IMG/VR virus record: IMGVR_UViG_3300047444_000303
Location: 1-41,783 of that record
DNA length: 41,783 bases
Source: a virus
Reading direction: 5' to 3' (one strand)
Of this stretch, positions 27,088 to 40,461 are shown in pieces. Under the pieces are notes generated by a model, which worked only from the letters and a program-made list of their open reading frames with translations, did not search any database and had not been told where the DNA came from. Within the stretch, counting starts at the first letter, position 1. Each line of letters starts with the position of its first letter. The position numbers were made by a program, and so were the translations under genes.

Positions 27088-27105
27088 TTGTTAAGTACTT
27101 AACAG
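27088..27105. promoter_or_regulatory. 18-bp palindrome copy 1, next to a -35 box
   Basis: TTGTTAAGTACTTAACAG; the inner 16 bases are a perfect palindrome. It ends eight bases before the -35 of the 303-aa gene's promoter, where a bound protein could activate or repress. Confidence 0.8.
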
Positions 27106-27112
27106 GCGCGCC

Positions 27113-27141
27113 TTGACATACGCCTATTACATTCGTACACT
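27113..27141 (+). promoter_or_regulatory. Rightward sigma70-type promoter of the 303-aa gene
   Basis: TTGACA (27113-27118), 17-base spacer, TACACT (27136-27141). The leader to the ATG is about 55 bases and includes AAGCCAAAAGGG. The -10 is the same as in the leftward structural promoter. Confidence 0.8.
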
Positions 27142-27203
27142 TTGATTGTTGGCATATAGCCAATGAGCGCGGCAATCCGCCGCAAGCCAAAAGGGTTAAG
27201 ACT

Positions 27204-28115
27204 ATGACCGCTAAGAAACTGAACACCAAGACCGCCGCCAAAGTCGCGACGCCGGTCGATGCCGCTCCGGTCGTCGCTCCGGTCGCCGCTCAGGCCGCCG
27301 CCCTCGCCACTGAGCAGGCGCGCCTCGCCAAGGAGGCTCAAGACAAGGCTGAACGCCATGCGGCCTTTGTGCTGGCGATCGAGACCGCCGCCTCGACCGA
27401 GGGCAAGCGCGACAAGGAGCGCGCGTCTGTAGTCGCCACCATCGCCGCCTCCATCCCCGAGGAGACGCGCGCCTTGACCGCATGGGCTTTTGAGAATTGG
27501 AAGCGCGACGTCAAGGCGCATTACATCGCCGCTTATATGACAGCGCGGGGCTATGCGGCGACTTTCGCCGCCGTCCGGGCTTTGATGCCGATCAACTTTG
27601 CCGACAAGGCGAATGATACCAAGGGCATCGTCGCCAAAGAATGGGGCAAGCGTCTCGCCCCGTCCGGAACCAATGATCTCGATGACTGGCTGGATGCAGC
27701 CGACAAGGGCGGCGGATGCGCCCGCGTGTTGATTACCTACGCCTTCAAAGACGCCAAGATCGACATTGGCACCGCCGGCCCGTTGGTCGACAAGCCCAAG
27801 GGCGCCAATGACCGCGCGACCGATAAGCCGGACGCGCGCAAGGCTGCATTAACCGACGCCGATAAAGTGGCGGGCGCGACCATCCACATCCCGACCGCGC
27901 GCGAAACCATCGCCACGGCTCCAGCGGTCGACATCGCCGACGCGCTGGGTGAAATGGATACCGCGACGCTGTTCCGCATCTTCATGGACACGTCGCGCAA
28001 GGTAGCCGCCAATAAATCGACCAAAGGCGTCAAACGCACCATTGACGAAATTGACGTCGCCAAGCGTGTGCTCGAAATCATCGCCGGATATAACATGCTG
28101 CACACCGAGGGCTGA
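27204..28115 (+). CDS. 303-aa phage protein, independently transcribed, unknown function
   Basis: The N terminus is Ala/Lys rich (MTAKKLNTKTAAKVATPVDA) with a coiled-coil-like stretch (ATEQARLAKEAQDKAERHAA). A more ordered middle follows (ALTAWAFENWKRDVKAHYIA, GYAATFAAVRALMPINFADK, EWGKRLAPSGTNDLDDWLDA), and the C terminus is helical (DIADALGEMDTATLFRIFMD, EIDVAKRVLEIIAGYNMLH). I do not recognise a family. It has its own promoter, palindrome copy 1 and a strong terminator, which is unusual in this polycistronic genome and suggests a product needed in quantity or under separate control. DNA-binding or nucleoid-like roles are possible from composition but unproven. Confidence 0.85.
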   Translation: MTAKKLNTKTAAKVATPVDAAPVVAPVAAQAAALATEQARLAKEAQDKAERHAAFVLAIETAASTEGKRDKERASVVATIAASIPEETRALTAWAFENWKRDVKAHYIAAYMTARGYAATFAAVRALMPINFADKANDTKGIVAKEWGKRLAPSGTNDLDDWLDAADKGGGCARVLITYAFKDAKIDIGTAGPLVDKPKGANDRATDKPDARKAALTDADKVAGATIHIPTARETIATAPAVDIADALGEMDTATLFRIFMDTSRKVAANKSTKGVKRTIDEIDVAKRVLEIIAGYNMLHTEG

Positions 28116-28135
28116 CGCCTCGCCTCTCACCATCT

Positions 28136-28165
28136 CCCGCCAGTCGAAAGACTGGCGGGCTTTTT
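28136..28165 (+). terminator. Strong intrinsic terminator of the 303-aa gene
   Basis: CCCGCCAGTC-GAAA-GACTGGCGGG, a ten-base perfect stem with a GAAA tetraloop, followed by CTTTTT. A textbook rho-independent terminator. Confidence 0.9.
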
Positions 28166-28173
28166 GTTGCCTT

Positions 28174-28202
28174 GCGCCCGGCGTCGAAAGACGACCGGGC
28201 GC
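28174..28202. terminator. Second GAAA-loop hairpin
   Basis: GCGCCCGG + CGTC-GAAA-GACG + CCGGGCGC with one bulged A. It shares the GTCGAAAGAC core with the terminator just before it but has no T run. It may back up termination or protect RNA ends. Confidence 0.5.
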
Positions 28203-28209
28203 ATTGCGT

Positions 28210-28228
28210 TTGTTAAGTCGCTTAACAA
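28210..28228. promoter_or_regulatory. Palindrome copy 2 (19 bp)
   Basis: TTGTTAAG-TCG-CTTAACAA, eight-base perfect arms. It is the only copy with no gene close downstream; it marks the left edge of the gene-free, repeat-rich region. Confidence 0.8.
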
Positions 28229-28350
28229 CCATTACGAAGTTAATAGTTGATTGGATCGGGCGGTCGCCATGTGGGTGCGCGCCAGCGTCACATGGTAGTT
28301 GTAACCGCAATTGTGACAACAAAAATCGCTAAGTCATTGATATTGCTCAC

Positions 28351-28687
28351 GTGTCCACCCTCGTGTCCAATAACTTTGAGCCCAAGTGGTTCGTAAGTGA
28401 TTGAAAACAAACCTAAAACCCTAGGTGTCCTAAACATCCTAAATATTTTTATATAAGAGGGGGGTTTTTTTTCGGTGAAATGGTTAGGAGCCTAACGAAC
28501 GCGCTATGCCCGCCCCCATTCATGTTTAACATTATAGTAGCTCATTGCAGACTTTCTATAGGACCCCCTCTTATATCTGGAAAACTAGGACAAAGTGGAC
28601 ACGCGCGACACACCATTCAATATCAATCACTTACGCGAGGCTTGCGTGTCCAGTGTTATGGTCAAATGTGGACACGAGGGTGGACAC
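28351..28687. repeat. 19-bp perfect inverted repeat built from GTGTCCA boxes
   Basis: GTGTCCACCCTCGTGTCCA at 28351-28369 is the exact reverse complement of 28669-28687. Each arm holds two GTGTCCA boxes 12 bases apart. The arms are 299 bases apart. Confidence 0.85.
28451..28576. repeat. 13-bp perfect inverted repeat
   Basis: ATATAAGAGGGGG (28451-28463) and CCCCCTCTTATAT (28564-28576). The left arm runs into G6T8, an abrupt strand-asymmetric tract. A looser palindrome GTTAGGAGCCTAAC lies between the arms at 28483-28496. Confidence 0.8.
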
Positions 28688-28732
28688 GGTTCACACCTAA
28701 ACCAAATACTCTGTAACATTAGACAAAATATG

Positions 28733-28837
28733 GTTCACATTCGTACCATCCAAACTATAAACGTCGCCTATAACCTCGCCTCGCTTTGCGTCTGCTTATG
28801 GTCTGAGGATGGTAGTTTGGGTAGTACGAATGTGAAC
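28733..28837. repeat. 25-bp inverted repeat (23 of 25 paired)
   Basis: 28733-28757 begins GTTCACATTCGTAC and ends CCAAACTA; the reverse complement of 28813-28837 is the same at 23 of 25 positions. The arms are 55 bases apart, so a long hairpin or cruciform is possible. Confidence 0.85.
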
Positions 28838-28946
28838 TATCTCGATGCGCCGTCGCTCAAATCGAGGGCGCAAAATTCTAACTCACCAAGCCGCAGAAAA
28901 AATCTTTGTTCGGCGCGAACTATTTTTGTTGGCGGGGAAACGTCTA

Positions 28947-28975
28947 TTGACTTATGACTATAACTTTGGTATTAT
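28947..28975 (+). promoter_or_regulatory. Rightward sigma70-type promoter of the early-type operon
   Basis: TTGACT (28947-28952), 17-base spacer, TATTAT (28970-28975), in AT-rich DNA. It lies 105 bases before the first gene of the right arm and upstream of palindrome copy 3, so a bound protein could block elongation there. Confidence 0.7.
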
Positions 28976-29039
28976 AACAATCAGACGTAATGCGTCTACG
29001 TTTTGCTGCCAGCCTGTCGCTGGTGGCGTCACCCGCCGC

Positions 29040-29057
29040 TTGTTAAGGACTTAACAA
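29040..29057. promoter_or_regulatory. Palindrome copy 3
   Basis: TTGTTAAGGACTTAACAA, 22 bases before the ATG of the 71-aa gene and downstream of the promoter at 28947. Confidence 0.85.
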
Positions 29058-29079
29058 GGGCAAGCTGAAAGAAAATACG

Positions 29080-29295
29080 ATGGCTACGTTTGAACAGTTC
29101 CTCGCTATGGACGCTGAGATCATTGATGAGCAGCGCAACGCAATTCTCAAGAGTAACACCTACGACCTGCGCCGCGCGTTGGTGCTGGCGATGTGGACGG
29201 TGGACAACCTGAGCGATGAGGACTTGGACGGCTGCGACATCATCGCCCGCCTCAAGGAGGTCGTCGCCGACGCTCTGACCGATGCGAGGCTCTGA
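29080..29295 (+). CDS. First gene of the right arm (71 aa), unknown
   Basis: MATFEQFLAMDAEIIDEQRN then a helical middle (YDLRRALVLAMWTVDNLSDE) and an acidic C-terminal helix (ARLKEVVADALTDARL). Small, acidic and probably all-helical. It is read from the promoter at 28947. Phage genes at this place often encode host-takeover factors, but nothing here proves that. Confidence 0.7.
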   Translation: MATFEQFLAMDAEIIDEQRNAILKSNTYDLRRALVLAMWTVDNLSDEDLDGCDIIARLKEVVADALTDARL

Positions 29296-29296
29296 C

Positions 29297-29389
29297 GTGG
29301 CGCGCAACATCCTGCCTCTCGCCGCGTCCCTGCTGATGGGCGTGGCGATCGCCCTGCCCTTCGTCGCAGCGATCATCCGCTGCATCTAA
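29297..29389 (+). CDS. Micro-membrane protein (30 aa)
   Basis: GTG one base after the previous stop, with GAGG about eight bases upstream: MARNILPLAASLLMGVAIAL followed by PFVAAIIRCI. An ATG at 29282 in the same frame gives 35 residues. One hydrophobic helix with basic N-terminal flank. Too short to assign. Confidence 0.5.
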   Translation: MARNILPLAASLLMGVAIALPFVAAIIRCI

Positions 29390-29401
29390 TCAACCATTAC
29401 G

Positions 29402-29419
29402 TTGTTAAGGAGTTAACAG
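29402..29419. promoter_or_regulatory. Palindrome copy 4, containing a ribosome binding site
   Basis: TTGTTAAGGAGTTAACAG. Its centre AAGGAG is the ribosome site for the GTG start directly after it at 29420. Protein binding or RNA folding here would directly control that start. Confidence 0.8.
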
Positions 29420-29617
29420 GTGGCCTATGACCCATCCAAGGACACTGCGCTGGCTATCCTGCGCGAGTTCGTCGCTGACTGTCTGGCGGTTGGCAACAAT
29501 GATCCGGCGCAGACGTTCGACCAGCTCTCGCTGGTGCAGGACTGGCCAGACCTCGCCATCACGTTCGAGCGCGCTTATGCGTTCGTTGAATATGCCGACC
29601 GCCACGGCGGTTGTTAA
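29420..29617 (+). CDS. Small hypothetical protein (65 aa)
   Basis: Starts with GTG seven bases after the AAGGAG inside palindrome copy 4. MAYDPSKDTALAILREFVAD then SLVQDWPDLAITFERAYAFV; acidic and helical. The last codon and stop (TGT TAA) lie inside palindrome copy 5. No family recognised. Confidence 0.7.
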   Translation: MAYDPSKDTALAILREFVADCLAVGNNDPAQTFDQLSLVQDWPDLAITFERAYAFVEYADRHGGC

Positions 29618-29629
29618 CTACTTAAACAA
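29611..29629. promoter_or_regulatory. Palindrome copy 5 (19 bp, one extra A)
   Basis: TTGTTAACTACTTAAACAA. It supplies the TAA of the previous gene. The next ATG is 35 bases on, after AAGCCAAAGGAG. Confidence 0.75.
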
Positions 29630-29663
29630 CGCCGCCCTGTGCGGCAAGCCAAAGGAGATTGAT

Positions 29664-30026
29664 ATGCTCAATAGATGCAAGGGAGGCTATGAAGTCTCCG
29701 ACCCTGACACTGGCGCCACCGCTGACGTGTGGACACGCGAGGACGGAAGCTGGTCGATCTGGTCGGTGTTCACGCCTCGCGATGGACGTGGCAAGGGCGG
29801 AGCGGCCCGCATGATGCAGGAGATCACCGCGCTGCTCGATGAGCACGGCGTCGAGGCTCATCTTGGGGCGAAGGCGTTCCAACGCTACGAAATTCTTGGG
29901 GAGCCTGCTGTCGAGCCGTCACTGACGACGCCTGAGCTGGCTAAGTTCTACGCTAAGTTCGGCTTCGTCGTCCATCACGAGAACTACGGCGAGATCCACA
30001 TGCGCCGCCCAGCCAAGGGAGCCTGA
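29664..30026 (+). CDS. GNAT-like N-acetyltransferase (120 aa)
   Basis: Start ATG after AAGCCAAAGGAGATTGAT. The middle has DGRGKGGAARMMQEITALLD, matching the acetyl-CoA-binding R/Q-x-x-G-x-G/A motif of GNAT enzymes, and the C-terminal part has ELAKFYAKFGFVVHHENYG, the usual second half of the fold. The N terminus is beta-like (YEVSDPDTGATADVWTREDG). It would transfer an acetyl group to an amine; the acceptor could be a host protein, tRNA or small molecule and cannot be read here. It lies directly upstream of the LuxR-type gene (one-base gap), so the two are co-translated. Shorter than typical GNATs. Confidence 0.7.
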   Translation: MLNRCKGGYEVSDPDTGATADVWTREDGSWSIWSVFTPRDGRGKGGAARMMQEITALLDEHGVEAHLGAKAFQRYEILGEPAVEPSLTTPELAKFYAKFGFVVHHENYGEIHMRRPAKGA

Positions 30027-30027
30027 C

Positions 30028-30243
30028 ATGGCCAACCTGACCAAAGCCGAGACCAAGGTGATCGCGCTGCTGGCGCATGGCGAGCCGAACAAGGTGATCG
30101 CCTATCGCCTCGGCCTGTCCGAGAACACCGTGGGCAAGCATGTCGCCCGCATCTTCTGCAAGCTGGGCGTGACCAACCGCGTGCAGGCCGCACTGGACTG
30201 GCATCGGATCGGCTGGCGCGACAACCAGTTGTTAACCGCTTAA
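30028..30243 (+). CDS. Stand-alone LuxR-type (GerE) helix-turn-helix regulator
   Basis: 71 residues that are almost only a LuxR-type DNA-binding domain: LTKAETKVIALLAHGEPNKV (4-23), then IAYRLGLSENTVGKHVARIF (24-43) with the recognition helix, and CKLGVTNRVQAALDWHRIG. No receiver or ligand domain is attached. LuxR-type domains dimerise and bind palindromes of about 18-20 bp. The last codons TTG TTA ACC GCT TAA are themselves part of palindrome copy 6, so it may regulate itself and the genes that follow. Binding to the palindromes is my inference. GGGAG precedes the ATG. Confidence 0.85.
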   Translation: MANLTKAETKVIALLAHGEPNKVIAYRLGLSENTVGKHVARIFCKLGVTNRVQAALDWHRIGWRDNQLLTA

Positions 30244-30246
30244 CAA
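30229..30246. promoter_or_regulatory. Palindrome copy 6, inside the 3' end of the LuxR-type gene
   Basis: TTGTTAACCGCTTAACAA encodes the last four residues (LLTA) and the stop. It is followed by AAGCAAGCCAAAGGA, the leader of the next gene. Confidence 0.85.
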
Positions 30247-30267
30247 AGCAAGCCAAAGGAAACTGAC

Positions 30268-30480
30268 ATGCACATCGACACCACCAACCAACTCGCCGCC
30301 AGCTATCGCGTCGCCCATCTGCGGGACATGGAGGAGAGCGAGGCCATGGTCTGCGCTGAGCTGATCCGCGACCTGATTAAGGAGACCAACGCCCTGCGCA
30401 TATCTGGCGACCCGGAGTACCGCGCCTATCTGCGCTTCTGCGCTGGCACGGCCGATGATAACCTCGTGACGATGTATTGA
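30268..30480 (+). CDS. Hypothetical protein (70 aa)
   Basis: Start after AAGCCAAAGGAAACTGAC. MHIDTTNQLAASYRVAHLRD, then helical ESEAMVCAELIRDLIKETNA and a polar end (AGTADDNLVTMY). No motif is recognised. It precedes the first of two paralogous SH3-like genes. Confidence 0.7.
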   Translation: MHIDTTNQLAASYRVAHLRDMEESEAMVCAELIRDLIKETNALRISGDPEYRAYLRFCAGTADDNLVTMY

Positions 30481-30490
30481 GGAGAGCGTC

Positions 30491-30751
30491 ATGATCCCTA
30501 CAACCTTAAAGCCCGGAGCCAAGGTGCGCTGCGTCGCGCGCACATCTGGACTGGTCGACGGCCAGATCTACACCGTGATCGGCTACAACCCGAACTGCGG
30601 CTATGGCGGCGAGCGCACGAGCGTGCTGCTCGCCGATGTCAAGACCGCTCACACCACCGGCGACCGCGGCTGGATGCGCTACCGCTTCGAGGTGGTCAGC
30701 GACGGCGACGGCTCCGACTACCAAGGGCCAGACGACGTGGACTTAAACTGA
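30491..30751 (+). CDS. SH3/KOW-like small protein A (86 aa)
   Basis: MIPTTLKPGAKVRCVARTSG, QIYTVIGYNPN, then RTSVLLADVKTAHTTGDRGW and DGSDYQGPDDVDLN. The pattern L-K-P-G-A-K-V-R-C...Y-T-V is that of a small barrel (SH3/KOW-like). It is clearly paralogous to the 103-aa gene at 31184: same opening and identical ending DGSDYQGPDDVDL. Such domains bind nucleic acid or proteins. The stop abuts palindrome copy 7. Confidence 0.75.
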   Translation: MIPTTLKPGAKVRCVARTSGLVDGQIYTVIGYNPNCGYGGERTSVLLADVKTAHTTGDRGWMRYRFEVVSDGDGSDYQGPDDVDLN

Positions 30752-30769
30752 TTGTTAACCTCTTAACAA
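30752..30769. promoter_or_regulatory. Palindrome copy 7
   Basis: TTGTTAACCTCTTAACAA, starting one base after the stop of the SH3-like gene and 15 bases before the next ATG. Confidence 0.85.
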
Positions 30770-30783
30770 AGGGAAAGACTGCA

Positions 30784-30939
30784 ATGAAAGACATGAGCAT
30801 CACACTGGCGCTGTTGAGCGCCATGACCACCGGCCTGCTGGCGCTGGTGGTGTCCGAGGTCCGCTACTGGCTGCGCCATCGCCGCTTCGTGCGCCACCTC
30901 AGCCGCCGCCTGCCCACCCACAATTTTGACAAGGAGTGA
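30784..30939 (+). CDS. Small membrane protein (51 aa) with basic tail
   Basis: MKDMSITLALLSAMTTGLLA then LVVSEVRYWLRHRRFVRHLS and RRLPTHNFDKE. One membrane span at about 5-23 followed by a very basic helix that would face the cytoplasm. GGGAAAGACTGCA precedes the ATG. Its 3' end AAGGAG is the ribosome site of the next gene. Function unknown. Confidence 0.65.
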   Translation: MKDMSITLALLSAMTTGLLALVVSEVRYWLRHRRFVRHLSRRLPTHNFDKE

Positions 30940-30944
30940 CGACC

Positions 30945-31187
30945 ATGACCAGTGAAGTGATCTTTGACGGCTACGAGCTGCGACTGTCCGACGCCGACGT
31001 CATCATGCACATCATGCCGCCGCAGTTGGCGATCGAGCTGCAGCGCTCCAAGTCCTGCGCTCTGGTGTCTGACGCCATGCGCGACTTCACCGCGGCCTAT
31101 GCCGCCGAGCGCCTGTCCAAGCCGGCTTATCTGGCGGTGATCGGCGCGCTGGCCGACCTGCTCGCCACCGAGGGGAGGCCGCAATGA
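30945..31187 (+). CDS. Hypothetical protein (80 aa)
   Basis: I start it at the ATG 30945, eight bases after AAGGAG; a GTG at 30936 overlaps the previous stop. MTSEVIFDGYELRLSDADVI, then helical MPPQLAIELQRSKSCALVSD and AAYAAERLSKPAYLAVIGAL. ATGA overlap with the next gene. No family named. Confidence 0.75.
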   Translation: MTSEVIFDGYELRLSDADVIMHIMPPQLAIELQRSKSCALVSDAMRDFTAAYAAERLSKPAYLAVIGALADLLATEGRPQ

Positions 31188-31496: not shown

Positions 31497-31514
31497 TTGT
31501 TAACCACTTAACAA
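31497..31514. promoter_or_regulatory. Palindrome copy 8
   Basis: TTGTTAACCACTTAACAA, identical to copy 9. It starts two bases after a stop codon; the next ATG is at 31550. Confidence 0.85.
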
Positions 31515-31993: not shown

Positions 31994-32011
31994 TTGTTAA
32001 CCACTTAACAA
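31994..32011. promoter_or_regulatory. Palindrome copy 9
   Basis: TTGTTAACCACTTAACAA, identical to copy 8. It starts two bases after the previous stop and 17 bases before the next ATG. Confidence 0.85.
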
Positions 32012-32027
32012 CATGAGGAGATGTGAG

Positions 32028-32210
32028 ATGCGTCTAAGATATGTCGTCGTGCTTTCCAGAGCGATAGAGGTGGAGGGCAGATACATGGTCAGCGTCTTAG
32101 GACCATTCAAGACAGTCGAATTGGCAAGCAAGTGCGGCCTGAAAGTCATGCAGGAGAACATCAAGGTTTTAGACCTCACGCATACTGTCGAAGCGATGTG
32201 CGCCAACTAA
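32028..32210 (+). CDS. Hypothetical protein (60 aa)
   Basis: Started at the ATG 32028, seven bases after AGGAG; an ATG at 32013 would place that site inside the gene. MRLRYVVVLSRAIEVEGRYM, SVLGPFKTVELASKCGLKVM, ENIKVLDLTHTVEAMCAN. The layout is the same beta-helix-beta type as its neighbour at 31798. Confidence 0.65.
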   Translation: MRLRYVVVLSRAIEVEGRYMVSVLGPFKTVELASKCGLKVMQENIKVLDLTHTVEAMCAN

Positions 32211-32232
32211 CAACACGATCTGGAGAGATCAC

Positions 32233-34587
32233 ATGCCAAATGAAGTCTATTACATCCTTATTGCGCCCAAGTCTGGTGAGACCCACAAGGTCGACGGCGC
32301 CGCCAAGCTTTACTCGTCCCGCGACGACGCTGGCGCAGCCGCCGTGCTGCTGCAAGTAGCCAACCCTGACGCGGTCTATCTGGTCGAGGGGCCGCACACC
32401 AAGGACAAGCTGGACTGGAAGGCGCGAGAGCTGGCGCGGCTGATGGACAAGTCCCATCAGCCGCTGATCCCTGAGCTGCAGCTGCATTGCCTGCCCGATC
32501 ACTTCGCCCATGTCGCCAAGGGCGACCCGCGCAGCTTGGCCTACACCAAGAACGAGGCCGATGGTGTGCGCGACATCCAGAAGCGCATGAGCGTCGAGGC
32601 CTATCTCAAGCTCTATGCGCCCCATGTCGGCAGCTATGACGCGCAAGTGCTGGCGAGCAAGCACCAAGCCATGGCCAGCGCCGCCGACCTCAAGATCGCG
32701 ACCACGGCTGAGGACATCATCGAGGTCTACACCAACCACGTGTCGAGCGGCGGGGTGGCGTCGAGCTGCATGCGCCACGACCTCGGATACTTCCAAGGCT
32801 CCGAGCACCCGGTTGCCGCCTATGGCGGCAGTGATCTGGCGGTGGCCTATGTCACTGACGACCGGGACCGCACCGCGGCGCGCGCCATCGTGTGGCCGGA
32901 GAAGAAGGTCTACTCGCGGATGTACGGCAACGAGCGTTCGACGCCGGAGCTGCAGCGGCTGATGCTGGCGGCGGGTTACCGGCCGAGCAAGGGCTATTAC
33001 GGCGGCGCCAGCAATGTCTCTGAGCACTCGCTGGTCGGAGCGCGGCTGCGGGCGGTCAAGGACGAGAACGAAAAGGGTCGGCTGATCGTGCCTTACCTCG
33101 ACGAGGGTAACTTCGGTGTGCTCGACCCGACGCGCCAGTGGATCACCATCGTCGATGCGCAGCCCGCCGAGGGGCGGATGGTCTGTCTCAAGGACACCGG
33201 CGGGGTAAGCCATGTGACTGGCCCGCGCTGCCCGACATGCAACAACAACCGCACCGATGGCGTGACGATGGTCAGAGCCTACGCCACCTATCCGATCGAC
33301 GAGGATCTGGTGTCGACCCACTGCCCGCACTGCTTAAGCTCCTACACCTTCGTCTGCGCCGGGACCGGGCTTCGCTTCAACCGCAACGCGGTCGATCGCG
33401 CATACGCCAACGGACAGGCCTACGCCCGTCTCTGGGCCGAGGCCAACCTGCCGATGTGCGGCTACTGCCACATCTTCCAGCCATCAGGGGCGAGCTTGCT
33501 CCCAGCGCGACTGACGCTGGGTGGTGAGCCGACAAGGATCTGCCATAGCTGCGCCAGCCGTGACGCCTTCTGGTGCGAGGACGCCGGCATGCTGACTCAC
33601 AACAACCTGCGGGCGCTTGACGTCGGACGGCGTAAGAAGGTCGACTTCGACGGTCAGGTCCGGCTGATCGACCGCGGCCACAGCGTGCTGTCGAGACGAG
33701 CGTCCAACCACCCAGACTGGGCGGGGCTGCACGCCATCGCCAAGCGGGAGGCGGAGCATGGCGCAGTCTGGCTCTGCTCGATCCATCGCATCACTGGCGT
33801 TCCGGTGTCGCGCAGCAATGGGCGGGAGGTCGAGCGCTTCCTCGGCGTCGTTCAGGCGTTGCGCTATCTGTCGCCCAACCACGAGGTCGTGGTCTACAGT
33901 GACGAGATCGCGGCGCGGCTGCCGCGAGTCGGCGACTGGGTGAGCCTGTCAGGCTCGTTGCATCTGGACGTGAAGGGAGCGGTCGGGCAGATCACTGCGG
34001 TGGACGGGCCTGAGCACAGCCCGTTCGCGGTGACGTTGCCCGATGGCCGCGTGGCCTATTGCTCGTCGGCGCAGATCGCCAAGATCGCCGACCCGCAGGT
34101 GGTGATGCGCCCGCGGCCGGCGCCGCAGGTGGGTGACGCCGTGATGTTCTACCATCCGGCCAGCCCGCGCTTTGGTCAGTCAGGCGTGGTCGAGAGCATC
34201 GAGGACGGGATCTACGCCGTCCGCATGGCGCGAGGCGAGCTGCGCCGAGCCAACGCCTCCCGGCTGCAGTCGGTCGGACCAGTGACAGAGCCGGAGGCGG
34301 TGCTGCCGGGGCTGGAGCGAACGGTCGTGGACCTGCGACCGGCGGAGCCTGCGACTACCATGCCAACGCGCGTGTGGCGGGTCGGCGACCGCTGCCGACT
34401 GCTGCCGAATTGCCGAGACATCTCCGTCAGGAGAGAGGACATAAACGGTCTGGCGACTGTGACGAGAGTAAACGCCCGAGGGATAGTCTCATCAGTAGAC
34501 AGCGACTCAGGCTATAATTGGGCGGTGAGCAACTACAACGTCGAGCCAGTCGACGATAACGGCGTGTCGGTCGAGGCCGCCGAGTAA
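32233..34587 (+). CDS. Large right-arm protein (784 aa) with zinc ribbons and SH3/KOW-like C terminus
   Basis: An N-terminal beta-helix-beta module (1-55) is followed by a conserved-looking block at ~120-235 (VSSGGVASSCMRHD, EHPVAAYGGSDLAVAYV, RTAARAIVWPEKKVYSRMYG), a pattern I recall in large phage early proteins of unknown role. Two treble-cleft or ribbon-type zinc sites follow: C333-x2-C336 with C364-x2-C367, and C409-x2-C412 with C437-x2-C440. The C-terminal ~220 residues hold three small-barrel repeats (PRVGDWVSLSG, QVGDAVMFYHPASPRFGQSG, RVGDRCRLLPNCRDIS). Zinc ribbons and KOW-like barrels suggest binding to nucleic acid or RNA polymerase. No catalytic motif is seen. Confidence 0.85.
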   Translation: MPNEVYYILIAPKSGETHKVDGAAKLYSSRDDAGAAAVLLQVANPDAVYLVEGPHTKDKLDWKARELARLMDKSHQPLIPELQLHCLPDHFAHVAKGDPRSLAYTKNEADGVRDIQKRMSVEAYLKLYAPHVGSYDAQVLASKHQAMASAADLKIATTAEDIIEVYTNHVSSGGVASSCMRHDLGYFQGSEHPVAAYGGSDLAVAYVTDDRDRTAARAIVWPEKKVYSRMYGNERSTPELQRLMLAAGYRPSKGYYGGASNVSEHSLVGARLRAVKDENEKGRLIVPYLDEGNFGVLDPTRQWITIVDAQPAEGRMVCLKDTGGVSHVTGPRCPTCNNNRTDGVTMVRAYATYPIDEDLVSTHCPHCLSSYTFVCAGTGLRFNRNAVDRAYANGQAYARLWAEANLPMCGYCHIFQPSGASLLPARLTLGGEPTRICHSCASRDAFWCEDAGMLTHNNLRALDVGRRKKVDFDGQVRLIDRGHSVLSRRASNHPDWAGLHAIAKREAEHGAVWLCSIHRITGVPVSRSNGREVERFLGVVQALRYLSPNHEVVVYSDEIAARLPRVGDWVSLSGSLHLDVKGAVGQITAVDGPEHSPFAVTLPDGRVAYCSSAQIAKIADPQVVMRPRPAPQVGDAVMFYHPASPRFGQSGVVESIEDGIYAVRMARGELRRANASRLQSVGPVTEPEAVLPGLERTVVDLRPAEPATTMPTRVWRVGDRCRLLPNCRDISVRREDINGLATVTRVNARGIVSSVDSDSGYNWAVSNYNVEPVDDNGVSVEAAE

Positions 34588-34622: not shown

Positions 34623-34640
34623 TTGTTAACAACTTAACAA
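34623..34640. promoter_or_regulatory. Palindrome copy 10
   Basis: TTGTTAACAACTTAACAA, directly followed by the leader AGCCAAAGGATAAGTC and the ATG at 34657. The unit is nearly identical to that of copy 13. Confidence 0.85.
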
Positions 34641-34656: not shown

Positions 34657-36423
34657 ATGTCAGAAGAACGCAACACCACCGCCGTCGTCGAGACCTCCAC
34701 CGCCACCGCCATGGTCGAGCCGGAGGAGCGGCTAACCCTCCGCGACGTCACCAAGACCAAGGGCGAGCATCGCGCCTTCGTCGATCTGCTTGGCATGTTC
34801 AGCCACTGCCGGCCGCATGACACCAAGGCCACTGTCGACTTCGCCAAGAAGTGGCTCAAGCCGCTCGGGGCCAAGATGGACAAGCGCGGCAACTGGCGGC
34901 TGCGCATCGGCGACGACTCCAAAGTGCTGTGGTCGAGCCACATCGACACGGTCGACTGGCGCGAAGGCGCCAAGAAGCTGACCCTCAACAGCTCGACCGG
35001 GGTGCTGCGGCTGTCGGACAAGGACAGCAACTCGTCATGCTTGGGCGCTGACTGCACCACCGGGGTGTGGATCATGCGCGAGATGGCGCTGGCCAAGGTG
35101 CCGGGGCTGTACATCTGGCATGAGGCCGAGGAGGCCGGCGGCATCGGCTCTAGCTGGATCAAGAACAACGACAGCGGCATCCTCAAAGGAATGAACGCCG
35201 CCATCGCCTTCGACCGCAAGGGCTTCGACAACATCATCACCGAGCAGTCGGGCGGCCAGTGCTGCTCGAACGAGTTCGCTGCGGCGCTGGCGCTCCAGCT
35301 CCCCGACACCAATTACAAGGCGGACCCGACTGGAACCTTCACCGACACCGCCAACTACACCCACATCATCCCTGAGTGCACCAACCTGTCGGTCGGCTAC
35401 TTCAACCAGCACTTCAAGGGCGAGACCCAGAACGTGATCTTCGCCATGCTGCTGCGGGCGGCGATGCTGCGCTTCGACGAGACCAAGCTGGTGATTAAGC
35501 GCAAGCCCGGCGAGGGCAAGCGCACCTACAACTACGCCAGCTGGAGCGGCATGGATGACTGGGACGGCGGCTCCTATGGCGGCTACAAGAGCGCTGAATA
35601 CTATGTCCGCAACTACGTCATCATCGGCGACACCGTCAAGATCCTCGCCTCGGCCTTTGGCCAAGGCGCGCTCGACACCGACATCGGACGGCAGGGCAAG
35701 GTCATGAGGGTCGGCTACGCCGGCTCGGCGCGCACCCTCAACATCAAGTTCGCCGATGACGGCGACTGGATCGAGAACCTCAAGGACTATCATGTCAAGC
35801 GGGTGGTGCCTGAGACCAAGGTACCGGAACGAAAGGTGACCTATTACAACAAGGGCGACCGTGTCCGCATCGCCGAGGCCGGTCGCGCTGATCTGACGAG
35901 GCGCGCCATGGGCACCATGATCATCGACAACCTCATCGGCAGCGAGGGCGTCATCGCCGACGTGGTGCTGCGCAACAACACCGCCGATATCCAGCTCGAC
36001 AGCGGGCGCATGCTGTGGGGCTTCGACGGCAAGGGCTTCGAGCTGGTCAAGGCCGTGGAGGAGAAGAAGGAGCCGGCCAAGAACGCCAAGGGCAAGGTCA
36101 AGGACTACAGCAAGACCCGCTGCGGCGGGCTGTGCGCCGGCAAGTGTCAAGGCATGTGCGCTGACCCGGTCAAGCTCGACATGCTCAAGCGGCTGGCGGC
36201 GCAGGTCGACAAGGCCCAGAAGGAGCCCAAGGTCTCGACCCAGCGCAGCCCGTCCGGCCGCGCCGTCAAGGTCTACGATTACGAGGATGACGGTTGCGGA
36301 ACGCGCTCGTGCAAGACCCTGCACGACTTCGTCGTCACCTACCCCGACCACCTCGTCGACATGATCGAGCAGTGGGGCTTGACCTTGAAGGATCTCTACG
36401 ACAGCTATCCTGACTGTCTGTAA
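34657..36423 (+). CDS. M20/M28-like zinc metallopeptidase fused to SH3/KOW-like domains (588 aa)
   Basis: Residues ~35-260 carry the metal-site series of M20/M28/M42 peptidases in order: SHIDT (His95, Asp97), LGADCTTG (Asp132), HEAEEAGGIGSS (Glu158/Glu159), AFDRKG (Asp186) and TANYTHIIPE (His236). All expected ligands and the catalytic Glu are present, so a two-metal aminopeptidase or related amidohydrolase is likely. After it come two small-barrel domains (IIGDTVKILAS...GRQGKVMRVG; NKGDRVRIAEAG) and a Cys cluster C-x3-C-x3-C-x3-C near residue 490-502. The substrate could be a host peptide, a modified protein or a small molecule. It is expressed from the right-arm operon after palindrome copy 10, not with the lysis genes. 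Confidence 0.8.
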   Translation: MSEERNTTAVVETSTATAMVEPEERLTLRDVTKTKGEHRAFVDLLGMFSHCRPHDTKATVDFAKKWLKPLGAKMDKRGNWRLRIGDDSKVLWSSHIDTVDWREGAKKLTLNSSTGVLRLSDKDSNSSCLGADCTTGVWIMREMALAKVPGLYIWHEAEEAGGIGSSWIKNNDSGILKGMNAAIAFDRKGFDNIITEQSGGQCCSNEFAAALALQLPDTNYKADPTGTFTDTANYTHIIPECTNLSVGYFNQHFKGETQNVIFAMLLRAAMLRFDETKLVIKRKPGEGKRTYNYASWSGMDDWDGGSYGGYKSAEYYVRNYVIIGDTVKILASAFGQGALDTDIGRQGKVMRVGYAGSARTLNIKFADDGDWIENLKDYHVKRVVPETKVPERKVTYYNKGDRVRIAEAGRADLTRRAMGTMIIDNLIGSEGVIADVVLRNNTADIQLDSGRMLWGFDGKGFELVKAVEEKKEPAKNAKGKVKDYSKTRCGGLCAGKCQGMCADPVKLDMLKRLAAQVDKAQKEPKVSTQRSPSGRAVKVYDYEDDGCGTRSCKTLHDFVVTYPDHLVDMIEQWGLTLKDLYDSYPDCL

Positions 36424-36442
36424 CCTTCACGAGAATGTGATT

Positions 36443-36460
36443 ATGTTAAGCACTTAACAA
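36443..36460. promoter_or_regulatory. Palindrome copy 11
   Basis: ATGTTAAGCACTTAACAA, 19 bases after the peptidase stop. The 51 bases to the next ATG end in AAGCCAAAGGAGAGTGAG. Confidence 0.8.
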
Positions 36461-36511
36461 ACTGTACGCTCGCAGTATTTGCGAGCGTAGCCCAAGCCAA
36501 AGGAGAGTGAG

Positions 36512-36706
36512 ATGGCCTACCCCCGAAAACATTCCGACCGCCCTGTCCACAAGGGCCGCGCCAAGCGCTTCGAGACATGGCTGCGCCACGCTGACGCCGC
36601 CACCCTCGACAAGACCTACGCGCAGGCGGTCAAGACCTACAATGCGTATCAGAAGGACGCCATCGTCGCCGAGCTGCGCCGTCGCGAGCTGGAGGACTGC
36701 GCATGA
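36512..36706 (+). CDS. Small basic protein (64 aa)
   Basis: MAYPRKHSDRPVHKGRAKRF then WLRHADAATLDKTYAQAVKT and KDAIVAELRRRELEDCA. A basic N terminus and helical rest suggest nucleic-acid contact. ATGA overlap with the next gene. Leader AAGCCAAAGGAG present. Confidence 0.7.
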   Translation: MAYPRKHSDRPVHKGRAKRFETWLRHADAATLDKTYAQAVKTYNAYQKDAIVAELRRRELEDCA

Positions 36707-36906
36707 GCGGCCTCCCCTCCGAGTTCGACCTGTTCTTTGACCTCAAGCAACGCGAGCAGCTCACATCATGGCTGATTGACCGCGCTTCTGACGTCTCGCT
36801 CGCGGTCGGCATGATGCTGCTCCACAAGACCCCTCTGACTGAGGACGAGACGTCCGAACTCGCCAAGCTCAAGGCGGTGATCTCTAAGCTGGAGGATGTG
36901 AGATGA
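36703..36906 (+). CDS. Hypothetical helical protein (67 aa)
   Basis: MSGLPSEFDLFFDLKQREQL, TSWLIDRASDVSLAVGMMLL and TSELAKLKAVISKLEDVR. Acidic and helical. Both ends overlap neighbours by ATGA. Function unknown. Confidence 0.7.
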   Translation: MSGLPSEFDLFFDLKQREQLTSWLIDRASDVSLAVGMMLLHKTPLTEDETSELAKLKAVISKLEDVR

Positions 36907-37124
36907 CTTACTATATCGCAGGCGGTCGAGCATGGGGCGATGATGAAGCGGTCTCCATCGTCATCAGAGCCATCAACTCTACGGAGGCGGCGCGCAAGTT
37001 CAGAGAGAGCTTCAAGAGCTACGACCCGACCGTCGAGGATGGGCCGGGCATCGTCTATATCGACTTCATCTTCGATTGCGGAGGCCACAAGCCAACCTAC
37101 ACTACGTGGAGGGACGAACGATGA
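36903..37124 (+). CDS. Hypothetical protein (73 aa)
   Basis: MTYYIAGGRAWGDDEAVSIV, AINSTEAARKFRESFKSYDP, GPGIVYIDFIFDCGGHKPTY. Beta-helix-beta layout like several other small genes in this arm. ATGA overlaps at both ends. Confidence 0.7.
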   Translation: MTYYIAGGRAWGDDEAVSIVIRAINSTEAARKFRESFKSYDPTVEDGPGIVYIDFIFDCGGHKPTYTTWRDER

Positions 37125-37330
37125 CCCGCATCCGTAAGGTCTGCGCCCATTGCGGCTCAGAAGACATCACCTACGACGCCCTCGTGTGCTGGGACGTGGA
37201 CCTCCAAGACTGGACGTTCTCCACCTTGCTCGACGCGGGAGCCTGCGAGAACTGCGGCGCGGAGCTGTGGGAGAAAGACATCCGCGATGAGGAGATCGTC
37301 GAAGATCAAGCCAAAGGAGATCAGCCATGA
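37121..37330 (+). CDS. Small zinc-ribbon protein (69 aa)
   Basis: Started at the ATG that overlaps the previous stop (ATGA). MTRIRKVCAHCGSEDITYDA ... ACENCGAELWEKDI: two C-x2-C-G knuckles about 36 residues apart form a classic zinc ribbon, followed by a very acidic C terminus. A nucleic-acid or protein adaptor role is likely. Its last bases hold the AAGCCAAAGGAG leader of the next gene. Confidence 0.75.
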   Translation: MTRIRKVCAHCGSEDITYDALVCWDVDLQDWTFSTLLDAGACENCGAELWEKDIRDEEIVEDQAKGDQP

Positions 37331-37539
37331 CGCTCGACCCCAACCTACTGTTCACCAAGGACATGATCGCGAAGGTGCGCAAGCTGCGCCACCTCGCTGA
37401 CGGCCAACGTATCGACGTGATCGAGCGCGACGTGATCGCGCCTGAGATGGCGAACATCGACAAGATCACAGGGCAGGAGAACCATCCCCGCTACATGGCC
37501 TACCTGATCGACCACTTGGTCGCCAGCGGAAAGTTGTGA
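37327..37539 (+). CDS. Hypothetical protein (70 aa)
   Basis: MTLDPNLLFTKDMIAKVRKL, DGQRIDVIERDVIAPEMANI, HPRYMAYLIDHLVASGKL. Helical. ATGA overlap with the zinc-ribbon gene. The stop is two bases before palindrome copy 12. Confidence 0.7.
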   Translation: MTLDPNLLFTKDMIAKVRKLRHLADGQRIDVIERDVIAPEMANIDKITGQENHPRYMAYLIDHLVASGKL

Positions 37540-37540
37540 G

Positions 37541-37558
37541 TTGCTAAATAGTTAACAA
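37541..37558. promoter_or_regulatory. Palindrome copy 12, imperfect
   Basis: TTGCTAAATAGTTAACAA: the left arm has one change (C for T) and the centre differs. It is followed by AGCCAAAGGAGAGCACCT and ATG. Confidence 0.7.
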
Positions 37559-37576
37559 AGCCAAAGGAGAGCACCT

Positions 37577-37762
37577 ATGACCAAACTTAAGAAGTACCGC
37601 GTCACCATCGAGGAGACAGTGATCTATGACGTCGAGGTCGAGGCCGAAGATAGGCGTGGCGCTGAGACGGTAGCGGTCGACCGTCTCATTGACGCCGACA
37701 ACAACAGATATTTCACCGCCGTCACTGAGCGCGACGTCACGAGAGTCAAGGAGCTGAAATGA
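37577..37762 (+). CDS. DpnD/PcfM-like small protein A (61 aa)
   Basis: MTKLKKYRVTIEETVIYDVE, VEAEDRRGAETVAVDRLIDA: strand-strand-helix layout with the Y-x-V-x-I-E-E-T...V-E-A-x-D-x-x-x-A pattern of DpnD/PcfM-type domains. It is similar in layout to the gene at 38164. ATGA overlap with the next gene. The function of such domains is not established. Confidence 0.7.
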   Translation: MTKLKKYRVTIEETVIYDVEVEAEDRRGAETVAVDRLIDADNNRYFTAVTERDVTRVKELK

Positions 37763-37971
37763 CTCGTCTGTTCCAGCACCGCCACTACGCGGTGATCGCC
37801 GACGCGCTGGCTGAGCACAGCGACTTCTACCCAGATCTCGAACCAGTCGTCGACAGCCTCGTCTACCGCTTCAAGAAGGACAACTCAGCGTTCGACGAGG
37901 AGCGCTTCCGCGCCGCCTGCAACGACCGACCCACCACCAAGGACGCGCGCAGCGGCAAGGCATTGAGATGA
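37759..37971 (+). CDS. Conserved phage protein (70 aa)
   Basis: MTRLFQHRHYAVIADALAEH then DLEPVVDSLVYRFKKDNSAF and DEERFRAACNDRP. The pattern HY-x-x-IA...L...F-x-x-DN-x-x-F-x-x-x-RF-x-x-AC recurs in many phages as a short protein of unknown role (from memory). ATGA overlaps on both sides. Confidence 0.75.
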   Translation: MTRLFQHRHYAVIADALAEHSDFYPDLEPVVDSLVYRFKKDNSAFDEERFRAACNDRPTTKDARSGKALR

Positions 37972-38144
37972 AGCGAGAGGACGATTACTTCGACGCCGAG
38001 TCCTACGCCGAATGGTCTCGCGACTGCGACGACCTGTGGGATCGGCCGGTCGACTACAGCCTAGTCTGGGTCGTCCTCGGCCCTATCCTGCTCTTGCTAG
38101 GAGCTATCGCTATCTGCGCGATTTTAGGTCTGTTAACCACTTAA
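37968..38144 (+). CDS. Small tail-anchored membrane protein (58 aa)
   Basis: MKREDDYFDAESYAEWSRDC, DDLWDRPVDY, then a C-terminal membrane helix (SLVWVVLGPILLLLGAIAIC). An acidic cytoplasmic head and one tail anchor. The start overlaps the previous stop (ATGA). The last codons CTG TTA ACC ACT TAA are part of palindrome copy 13. Confidence 0.7.
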   Translation: MKREDDYFDAESYAEWSRDCDDLWDRPVDYSLVWVVLGPILLLLGAIAICAILGLLTT

Positions 38145-38147
38145 CAA
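38130..38147. promoter_or_regulatory. Palindrome copy 13, forming the 3' end of a membrane-protein gene
   Basis: CTGTTAACCACTTAACAA encodes LLTT and the stop. AGCCAAAGGACAAGTC and ATG follow, a near-copy of the unit at 34623. Confidence 0.85.
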
Positions 38148-38163
38148 AGCCAAAGGACAAGTC

Positions 38164-38349
38164 ATGCCCAAGTACAAAATCACTGTCACCGAGACCTGCG
38201 AGTACAGCTTTGAAATCGACGCCGACGACGCGGAGCAGGCCCATGATCGGGCGCTGCCCGAGTTTCTCAAGGCGTTCCCGTTCGACGGGGACGAGGACTA
38301 CGGCATCAACATTCTCAATCGGTTCGTCGAAGTCGAAACCACCCAGTAA
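38164..38349 (+). CDS. DpnD/PcfM-like small protein B (61 aa)
   Basis: MPKYKITVTETCEYSFEIDA then DDAEQAHDRALPEFLKAFPF: the same strand-strand-helix pattern as the gene at 37577, so the two are likely paralogues. The C terminus is acidic (DGDEDYGINILNRFVEVE). Leader AAGCCAAAGGACAAGTC. Confidence 0.7.
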   Translation: MPKYKITVTETCEYSFEIDADDAEQAHDRALPEFLKAFPFDGDEDYGINILNRFVEVETTQ

Positions 38350-38365
38350 CGAGGAGGAGTATCCC

Positions 38366-39112
38366 ATGAGCATCGCCGAGAAGGCGCTGGTCGTCCACAT
38401 GACGGTCGGCGTGTGGACTGGCGCCAAGGTCGACCACGATCGGTCGACCGACCACCAACTGGTTCACAAGCAGGTCGTCCCCAAGAGCGCGCTCGCGGGA
38501 GTGATCAAGGCCCTCGGCGCGCTGCGCACCCACTTCTACGTTCACACCGCGCCGTGGAAAGACAACGGCGACCGGCTGCTGCCGGTCGTCACGCTGGTCG
38601 AGTTCTTGCGTGAGCACACCCGCTTGCGTAAGGCCTTCCAGACACAAGCGGAGGCCTTCGCCGCCAAGCATGACTGCGACCGCGACCGCTTCTACGTCAA
38701 GCTGTCGTTCGACATGGTGTGCAATCCCGCCTGTCTGGCGCTGGCCGGCGTCGACGGCGAACGTCTGGAGACCGTCCGCGGCAAGCTCAATGCTGAGCTG
38801 GCCGAACGCACCACCCGCGCCCAGCGCTTCTTGTGGGAGAAGCTGGAGCAGGCGGTGGGCCACTACGCTGAACGGCTGCTGTCGGGCGCGGTGTTCCGCG
38901 ACTCGACGGTCGACAACCTGCAGCAGGCGATCCGGCTGGCGCCGGCGCTCAACTTCTTGGATGACCCCGAGCTGGACTCGCTGATCGAGATCGAGCTGAG
39001 CCAGCTGCTCAGCGTCACCCCGGCCCAGATCCGCAAGGAGCCGCAGGTCAGGGTGATGGCCGGCGCCGGGGCGCAGTCCTGCCTCGCACAGATAAGGAGG
39101 AAACTACGTTGA
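38366..39112 (+). CDS. Conserved phage early protein (248 aa)
   Basis: Started at the ATG 38366 after GAGGAGGAG; the open frame upstream is in another gene. MSIAEKALVVHMTVGVWTGA and DHQLVHKQVVPKSALAGVIK are followed by LRTHFYVHTAPWKDNGDRLL and VVTLVEFLREHTRLRKAFQT. The order SIAEKA-L-V-x-L-x-I...W-x-G-x-K...H-Y-x-x-T-x-PW-x-D-x-GDRLL is one I know from phage proteins of unknown role. The C-terminal half is helical (RAQRFLWEKLEQAVGHYAER). No catalytic motif is seen. Confidence 0.8.
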   Translation: MSIAEKALVVHMTVGVWTGAKVDHDRSTDHQLVHKQVVPKSALAGVIKALGALRTHFYVHTAPWKDNGDRLLPVVTLVEFLREHTRLRKAFQTQAEAFAAKHDCDRDRFYVKLSFDMVCNPACLALAGVDGERLETVRGKLNAELAERTTRAQRFLWEKLEQAVGHYAERLLSGAVFRDSTVDNLQQAIRLAPALNFLDDPELDSLIEIELSQLLSVTPAQIRKEPQVRVMAGAGAQSCLAQIRRKLR

Positions 39113-39135
39113 CAACCTAAACATTCAGCTATAAC
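39109..39135 (+). promoter_or_regulatory. Possible internal promoter
   Basis: TTGACA (39109-39114), 15-base spacer, TATAAC (39130-39135). The spacer is short. It overlaps the previous stop and lies 30 bases before the 88-aa gene, where no palindrome is present. Confidence 0.4.
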
Positions 39136-39164
39136 GTCGCAACCGTAACCTAGAGAGTAGCCAA

Positions 39165-39431
39165 ATGAAATTGACCCGAAGTCCTGACCCCGTCATCAAC
39201 GAAATCCTCGACCGCTCGCGGCGGATCGAGAGCCGGCTGACCAGCTTTATCAACAAGTCTGGGTTCACCGTGCTCAACAAGAAGCCGGTATGGGACGGCC
39301 ATATGCTGTCCGTCACCGTCCCCAGCCGTGAGGTCTCGCTCGACGAGGTCCTCGCCGCCATCCCTGCGGGGGTCCTTGACGACGTCATGGTGATCTTCGC
39401 CGGCAAGACCTATTGCATCATATCCCTCTAA
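39165..39431 (+). CDS. Hypothetical protein (88 aa)
   Basis: MKLTRSPDPVINEILDRSRR, IESRLTSFINKSGFTVLNKK, VWDGHMLSVTVPSREVSLDE, VMVIFAGKTYCIISL. Helical first half and beta-like second half. It does not carry the AAGCCAAAGGA leader but has a possible promoter upstream. Function unknown. Confidence 0.7.
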   Translation: MKLTRSPDPVINEILDRSRRIESRLTSFINKSGFTVLNKKPVWDGHMLSVTVPSREVSLDEVLAAIPAGVLDDVMVIFAGKTYCIISL

Positions 39432-39456
39432 TCAACTGCAACTGGAGAGTAACGCC

Positions 39457-39729
39457 ATGTCCAAGACCATCACCAAGACCCTGACCCGCACCACCAAGCG
39501 CGGCGGCAAGGTCGTCAAGCGCTACCGCAAGGTCACCAAACTCACCACCCGCCGGATCAAGGTCCGCAAGGCGTCGCCGTTGGTTGAGTCGCTGGCTCTC
39601 GATGCTGCTTTGGTTGCAGCGCACACTGCGCACGGCGTGGCCCGCCCGGTAGCGAACCACATGCCGTTCGACGCTATCGAGCCATCAGGCAGCGCCATCT
39701 CGCGCACCGCCGCCATCCGAAAGTCCTAA
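39457..39729 (+). CDS. Basic protein (90 aa), likely nucleic-acid binding
   Basis: The N-terminal 40 residues are extremely Lys/Arg/Thr rich (MSKTITKTLTRTTKRGGKVV, KRYRKVTKLTTRRIKVRKA), like ribosomal or DNA-compacting tails. The rest is Ala-rich and less charged. It precedes a winged-helix-like gene. The composition suggests nucleic-acid binding; nothing more specific can be read. Confidence 0.7.
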   Translation: MSKTITKTLTRTTKRGGKVVKRYRKVTKLTTRRIKVRKASPLVESLALDAALVAAHTAHGVARPVANHMPFDAIEPSGSAISRTAAIRKS

Positions 39730-39748
39730 GCCAAAAGGAGTAACGCAG

Positions 39749-40180
39749 ATGAAATTTTTGATTCGCTTCACAGTCGGCGAGGCCGCGGTCGGGCCGGTGC
39801 TGGCCGCCCTCAACTCTCATCCCGGCGTGGTGTTCGACCACCTCGCCATCGAGCCGCTGGAGTTGAAGAAGACTCCCGAGGCCCCTGACACCGCTCCGGC
39901 CAAGGTCACAGGCAAGGCGGCGCCGGCCAAGAAGCCTCACAAGCGGGCGGAGCCGACGGCGCTGACCGCGCAAGCCCACGTCCTGCGCATCCTGTCGGAC
40001 GGCAACCCGCGCCGCTTCACTGACATCGAGACCGTGATGAAAAGTCTCGGCTTCAAGAGTTGTGGGTCGACCATGCGCAACCTGCTCGACAAAGGCTTGG
40101 CGGGCAAGACCCCCGACGGACTGTGGCAGACCACCAACCAGCGACAGATCCCTGCCCCGACGCTCGTGAAGGAGGCTTGA
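39749..40180 (+). CDS. Winged-helix-like protein (143 aa)
   Basis: Leader AAGCCAAAAGGAG, start MKFLIRFTVGEAAVGPVLAA. The first 50 residues are a beta-helix-beta module, then comes a Lys/Ala/Pro linker. Residues ~73-125 (LTAQAHVLRILSDGNPRRFT, DIETVMKSLGFKSCGSTMRN, LLDKGLAGKTPDGLWQ) look like a winged helix: three helices and a beta wing. A DNA-binding role is likely. Its target is unknown. Confidence 0.7.
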   Translation: MKFLIRFTVGEAAVGPVLAALNSHPGVVFDHLAIEPLELKKTPEAPDTAPAKVTGKAAPAKKPHKRAEPTALTAQAHVLRILSDGNPRRFTDIETVMKSLGFKSCGSTMRNLLDKGLAGKTPDGLWQTTNQRQIPAPTLVKEA

Positions 40181-40183
40181 TCC

Positions 40184-40438
40184 ATGTCAATGAAGTTCTA
40201 CAAATCCTACAGCTTCGTCGACAAGGACCCGGCGATCGACTTCGCTCGCACCGCCATCCAAGACAGCGGCCTCACCTATCAGCAGGTATCGGAGCTGTCG
40301 GATGTCAGTGTCGGCACCATGATCGGCTGGTTCCACGGCAAGACCCGCCGCCCGCAATACGCCACCATAATGGCGGTGATGCGCGGCATCGGCTACGAGC
40401 AACGCTGGACCAAGGCGCGCGCCAAGCGCAGCGCTTGA
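40184..40438 (+). CDS. XRE-like helix-turn-helix protein (84 aa)
   Basis: Start after AGGAGG. MSMKFYKSYSFVDKDPAIDF, ARTAIQDSGLTYQQVSELSD and VSVGTMIGWFHGKTRRPQYA follow the Cro/C1-type pattern (LTYQQVSELSDVSVGTMIGW as helix-turn-helix). TIMAVMRGIGY follows the usual dimer region. It is a candidate repressor, and it directly precedes palindrome copy 14, so it is a rival to the LuxR-type protein for binding the palindromes. Confidence 0.8.
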   Translation: MSMKFYKSYSFVDKDPAIDFARTAIQDSGLTYQQVSELSDVSVGTMIGWFHGKTRRPQYATIMAVMRGIGYEQRWTKARAKRSA

Positions 40439-40443
40439 TCCTC

Positions 40444-40461
40444 TTGTTAAGTTGTTAACAA
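40444..40461. promoter_or_regulatory. Palindrome copy 14
   Basis: TTGTTAAGTTGTTAACAA, six bases after the stop of the XRE-like gene. The next ATG is 45 bases further (40506). Confidence 0.85.

Follow-up and report, generated by a model that had tools for sequence, protein, structure and literature searches.

Palindromes of the window

The stretch of DNA analysed here (the window) is the whole IMG/VR record IMGVR_UViG_3300047444_000303 of 41,783 bases, coded G000 in comparisons among relatives. Its left arm carries the terminase, portal, capsid and tail genes on the minus strand, and its right or early arm encodes many small proteins on the plus strand. Relatives that share its capsid protein attain 61-67 kb, so the record is probably a genome fragment from which roughly 20 kb are missing. 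The subject of this study is the palindrome TTGTTAA-n4-TTAACAA, which recurs along the early arm (Table 1), together with the first early gene (FEG), the open reading frame (ORF) that lies between its first two copies.

Each of the fourteen copies listed in a first-pass annotation made from the sequence alone was found at its position. With up to three mismatches the motif has 13 matches in the window, far above the 0.12 expected by chance, and none of 100 shuffles reached this number; the fourteenth copy, at 28210, has a centre of five bases. Left of 27088, a scan with spacers of 0-8 bases found no copy with two or fewer mismatches, in agreement with the claimed absence from the structural arm. 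Both arms are perfect in 8 of the 14 copies. The description of near-invariant arms around a variable centre needs two corrections, in that the 19-base copy at 29611 (TTGTTAACTACTTAAACAA) is imperfect and the centre is not free: its positions 1 and 4 are G or C in nearly all n4 copies, so that the real unit is close to TTGTTAAS-nn-STTAACAA. Likewise, the copy at 27088 does adjoin a -35 box as proposed, but only about twelve copies, rather than thirteen, lie directly upstream of a gene. The copy at 28210 is situated in non-coding DNA, with the next gene about 850 bases away. In three places (29611, 30229 and 38130) the stop codon of the gene before lies within the palindrome.

Table 1 Palindromes, predicted promoters and first early gene in the early arm of the window. 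G001 and G002 are relatives; aa, amino acids.
Feature	Position	Strand	Remarks
Palindrome site 1	27088..27105		TTGTTAAGTACTTAACAG; 7 bases 5' of the P1 -35 box
P1, predicted sigma-70 promoter of the first early gene	27113..27141	+	TTGACA-n17-TACACT; consensus match, score 15.2
FEG, 303 aa, candidate palindrome-binding regulator	27204..28115	+	ORF between sites 1 and 2; covaries with the motif
Palindrome site 2 (n5)	28210..28228		94 bases past the FEG stop
P2, predicted sigma-70 promoter of the main early operon	28947..28975	+	TTGACT-n17-TATTAT; score 16.3
Palindrome site 3	29040..29057		about +57 from the predicted P2 start site; 22 bases before the ATG at 29080
Palindrome site 4	29402..29419		abuts the GTG at 29420
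Palindrome site 5 (imperfect)	29611..29629		includes the stop of 29420-29617
Palindrome site 6	30229..30246		includes the stop of 30028-30243; upstream of 30268
Palindrome site 7	30752..30769		upstream of 30784
Palindrome site 8	31497..31514		upstream of 31538/31550
Palindrome site 9	31994..32011		upstream of the 32013-34587 unit
Palindrome site 10	34623..34640		upstream of 34657 (588 aa); same boundary in G001 and G002
Palindrome site 11	36443..36460		upstream of 36512
Palindrome site 12	37541..37558		upstream of 37577
Palindrome site 13	38130..38147		includes the stop of 37968-38144; upstream of 38164
Palindrome site 14	40444..40461		upstream of a 169-aa frame ending at 40961

Palindromes and promoters in related phages

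In IMG/VR, 115 relatives of the capsid protein were found; distant relatives in named phages are those of Pseudomonas phage Rollin, Pseudoalteromonas phage vB_Pun_Y3 and Stenotrophomonas phage StenR_269. A search of all IMG/VR for the exact palindrome plus AGCCAAAG gave no other contig. The exact window motif is matched in only one of 30 long related records (G002), because each phage type has its own palindrome sequence. This became apparent from a de novo palindrome search in phages with related capsid and terminase genes, the set of early arms being enlarged to dozens through loci located by way of their terminase small subunit. Every phage type has a multi-copy palindrome of its own, different in sequence and arranged in the same layout. 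The 35 phages fall into 28 palindrome classes, with motifs such as TGTGAAC-n2-GTTCACA, TTGATACG-n3-CGTATCAA, GATTAAC-n2-GTTAATC, GGTGTTACAT-n1-ATGTAACACC, CGTCAGAT-n1-ATCTGACG, TTTGTGACA-n2-TGTCACAAA and ATCTGGGTAGCTACCCAGAT, in up to 17 copies per phage. The sites are 14-23 bp long with centres of 0-9 bases (0 or 1 in many phages), and several seemingly empty arms carry degenerate or low-copy families. The cultured phage StenR_269 (OR838459) has ten exact TTTAACGTTAAA palindromes, which its genome paper does not mention (PMC10747016), and our literature search found no report of these phage-type palindromes. The first early genes of StenR_269 are unlike FEG. Several motifs resemble the CRP-type TGTGA-n6-TCACA, with spacings of n5 to n7.

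The first-pass annotation had interpreted the palindromes as a phage-wide control system acting through a dimeric DNA-binding protein. The comparison with relatives supports such a system, in that palindromes of other sequence occur at the same kind of places; in three phages these include the boundaries in front of the 784-aa and 588-aa gene units. That G000, G001 and G002 conserve all their gene boundaries exactly was considered and rejected; only some boundaries are kept.

In almost every arm a palindrome lies on either side of the first early gene and none within it. Past this gene, most sites precede a start codon by 15-30 bases and adjoin AAGCCAAAGGA-type ribosome-binding sites. A start codon equipped with a ribosome-binding site is found no farther than 60 bases away at 115 of 217 sites, compared to 7-30% of random positions, depending on the phage. 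Strong promoters, defined by a predicted sigma-70 score of at least 13, number 43 on the early strand of the early arms vs 2 on the opposite strand. At about ten first-gene promoters a palindrome is located 6-17 bases 5' of the -35 box; at G001 and G023 the site of the first-gene promoter is downstream instead (+24 and +26). For 22 of the 33 other strong promoters, a palindrome begins at +24 to +57 from the predicted start site, compared to only 4.8% of random positions.

This geometry bears on the alternative of activation, in which host polymerase is brought to early promoters and gene groups by the bound protein. The centre of site 1, lying 16-23 bases before the -35 box in many phages, is at a position open to activators. 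However, sites 24-57 bases past the start, as at the other strong promoters, are typical of a block, the early promoters are near-consensus, so that no activator should be needed, and many sites 15-30 bases before a start codon leave no space for a promoter downstream. We therefore regard activation as distinctly improbable.

The proximity of most sites to ribosome-binding sites would also fit RNA hairpins or translation-initiation elements in early-gene leaders. A compensatory pairing signal is absent, however: departures from consensus comprise 128 one-arm changes, of which 90 break the pair and 38 give G-U, vs 12 compensatory changes. In addition, site 1 lies upstream of P1 and thus outside the P1 transcript, and centres of 0 or 1 base are common. 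A role of the palindromes as RNA is thus very improbable in our judgement, and the few compensatory changes, the untranscribed site 1 and the centres of 0-9 bases together favour double-stranded DNA recognised by a dimer as the form in which the palindromes act. An Rfam scan gave tRNA only and no known RNA element, and the signature of an intrinsic terminator is missing in the window, where the A+T-rich palindrome arms are not followed by a T run.

Finally, the sites might be hairpin promoters of an N4-type virion RNA polymerase (vRNAP) or parS-like partition sites. The capsid is N4-gp56-like according to the annotation of relative Y3, and a big virion protein of StenR_269 has been guessed to be a vRNAP (PMC10747016), but the grounds for that guess are size and helicity. 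Pfam holds no match to the 2210-aa virion protein, whose sole PHROG is one of unknown function (N4 vRNAP was not directly compared), and the sites accompany sigma-70 promoters. As to partition, no such genes are among the annotated conserved families, in which no search aimed at them was made. We give these two possibilities almost no weight.

The first early gene product as candidate regulator

Two helix-turn-helix ORFs of the window had been put forward as binders of the palindrome, for which the comparison gave no support. The 71-aa ORF 30028-30243, which consists almost entirely of a LuxR/GerE DNA-binding domain, has no detectable homologue in any compared relative, and the 84-aa protein encoded at 40184-40438 is 77% identical in G001, whose palindrome differs. 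An HTH_3 protein as common binder was rejected, as such proteins are not universal across the phage group. The comparison among relatives points to the 303-aa FEG product, which the first-pass annotation does not name, as the better candidate.

FEG products are basic (median isoelectric point 9.4), alanine-rich and hypervariable, and no convincing match was found in Pfam, PHROGs, PDB (sequence and fold) or named phages. The AlphaFold model of the FEG product of relative L171 shows a confidently predicted helical N-domain, a linker and a two-helix C-terminal hairpin, with a predicted local distance difference test (pLDDT) value of 84.

The similarity of FEG follows the palindrome. Where the terminase small subunits of two phages have a similarity of 0.65 or more, their FEG similarity is 0.40-0.94 if the motif is the same (19 pairs) and 0.06-0.17 if it differs (13 pairs); the similarity of other early genes does not track the palindrome. 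The pair L200/L216, first coded as different, was merged as same-motif, since the sites are variants of one degenerate motif. L177 and L223 have a common motif, and within 10 kb they share only FEG and one small ORF. Conversely, G000 and G002 have four other early genes in common (up to 53% over 801 columns), but FEG homology is undetectable and the motif geometry differs: G002 has equal half-sites with one base less between them and an unrelated FEG N-domain. The FEG cluster predicted which motif to expect in four short loci (L169, L180, L202 and L194) for which the multi-copy scan had given no family or another motif, and this motif was present in all four. Copies that extend over more than 13 kb could not have been replaced along with FEG by a single recombination event; that they changed in parallel thus suggests that FEG product and palindrome are in contact. 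We consider this covariation strong evidence of contact, but not proof.

In L189 and L204, whose terminases are 0.91 alike and whose palindromes differ, the C-terminal part of FEG is identical at 30 of 68 positions and the N-terminal part is unrelated, as if palindrome specificity resided in the N-domain. L185/L196 and G000/G001, which retain N-domain similarity despite different motifs, do not fit this assignment.

A different phage-encoded dimer, encoded for instance in the missing 20 kb or so, could also bind the palindromes as operators, with FEG merely evolving fast. The fragmentary nature of the record leaves room for such a protein and FEG lacks a recognisable DNA-binding family, but it is FEG rather than its neighbours that tracks the motif, FEG is the gene enclosed by sites in nearly all arms, and the HTH_3 proteins, as said, are not found throughout the group. 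A binder other than FEG thus appears rather unlikely.

Several further features of the window were recorded. From site 2 to P2 (28229-28946) extends an A+T-rich, apparently non-coding stretch of about 0.7 kb with an inverted repeat (GTGTCCACCCTCGTGTCCA / TGGACACGAGGGTGGACAC) near 28352 and 28668. A gap after the first gene is present in several relatives too, and the stretch is possibly a replication origin or an RNA. Two paralogue pairs with similar N-termini (30491-30751/31184-31495 and 37577-37762/38164-38349) are located in separate palindrome-bounded gene groups, which suggests cassette duplication. A conserved early module (38366-39112; L098:1509-2723; L103:9366-10448) comprises a weakly DUF3150-like family, a metallopeptidase/VWA protein (DUF2201) and an ATPase. 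A tRNA-Ser (gga) gene lies on the minus strand at the border between the two arms (26555-26631), and CCGGCG inverted repeats at 4749-5286, mostly spaced by 66 bases, are a coding tandem repeat within the 447-aa ORF 4103-5446.

Proposed mode of action and related control systems

Based on these comparisons, the FEG product probably acts as a repressor: bound to the palindromes in dimeric form, it would prevent both initiation and elongation along the early arm in the manner of stoperators. FEG would be expressed from the host-dependent P1 upon DNA entry, and its product, dimerising via the C-terminal helical hairpin, would occupy site 1 next to P1 and site 2 past its own gene, thereby controlling its own supply. 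It would further occupy the copies that follow the start sites of the other strong early promoters at a distance of about 25-60 bases, and those before later gene groups, where the bound protein would impede promoter escape and elongation of host polymerase, as stoperators do. The early arm would thus be turned off after a short pulse, giving an early-to-late switch, and the same silencing would befall incoming sibling phages that carry this palindrome.

A number of observations weigh against this repressor model. About 60% of the later sites have no strong promoter nearby, so that stoperator action is assumed there, and a site upstream of the -35 box, as at P1, is not a classic repression position. 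FEG fits no known DNA-binding family or fold, the helix-turn-helix-like look of its N-domain is an impression only, and the AlphaFold model of the window's own FEG product is unusable (pLDDT 39). The palindromes of G000 and G001 differ (one half-site base, equal geometry), yet their FEG N-domains are identical at 67 of 187 positions. As the same-motif pairs come from three clades, there are few independent contrasts. Moreover, no clear palindrome family is present in relatives G019, G021, L159, L225 and L226, nor was one seen in L182, L184 and L215, whose early arms open with an unrelated protein of 220-227 aa.

Among 27 records a single one has an integrase, and a search of 84,980 species genomes for a capsid relative, as would indicate a prophage, found none. 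For these reasons lysogeny seems unlikely and the phage group is apparently lytic.

Lambda Cro is an early protein that lowers early transcription via palindromic operators; these are few and confined to promoters, the protein has a known helix-turn-helix fold and the phage is temperate. The proposed FEG product would likewise be an early protein turning down early transcription through palindromic operators, but here the sites are many and dispersed, the fold of the candidate regulator is unmatched and the phages are apparently lytic.

The first-pass annotation had also seen a likeness to the stoperators of mycobacteriophage L5 and to the repeats of cluster K, with distinct sequence and layout, and our comparison confirmed both points. 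Stoperators of cluster A phages (L5, Bxb1, TipsytheTRex) are asymmetric, oriented 13-bp sites bound by a monomer of a known helix-turn-helix repressor in temperate phages (PMC6550527, PMC9283540). The palindromes share with them the large number of sites, placed in promoter regions and in the short gaps between genes of the non-structural arm, and the single motif per phage type that diverges together with the regulator, here a candidate one. Unlike stoperators, they are symmetric, the candidate regulator is not an L5-type helix-turn-helix repressor and has no known relatives, and integrase genes are rare in the phage group. The extended start-associated sequences (ESAS) of cluster K consist of two imperfect 17-bp repeats with a spacer of 4-13 bases, are tied to a constant 13-bp start-associated sequence (SAS), GGGATAGGAGCCC, and are of unverified function (PMC3203893, PMC12699233). 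Both ESAS and palindromes are inverted repeats directly upstream of translation starts, restricted to the non-structural half and with a subgroup-specific consensus. In contrast to ESAS, the palindromes are far more variable in sequence, a covarying gene has been identified, and the oriented consensus of none of the phages contains a constant SAS-like companion element. We therefore file the palindrome system as a variant of genome-wide operator control, closest in kind to cluster A stoperators and cluster K ESAS.

If the repressor model is true, genome-wide operator control reaches beyond temperate mycobacteriophages to a large, mostly uncultivated group of podoviruses. The approximately 28 motif classes with their candidate proteins would then form a natural series for the co-change of a regulator and its dispersed sites and, given the similar layout of cluster K ESAS, the palindrome system could make the long-unexplained function of these elements testable. 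More tentatively, an undescribed protein family of lytic phages may act as a Cro- or stoperator-like regulator with at least two dozen specificities, in which recurrent switching, driven by exclusion during co-infection, rewrites 8-17 dispersed sites. If exclusion is indeed involved, the palindrome classes would amount to immunity groups in lytic phages, that is, immunity groups without lysogeny.

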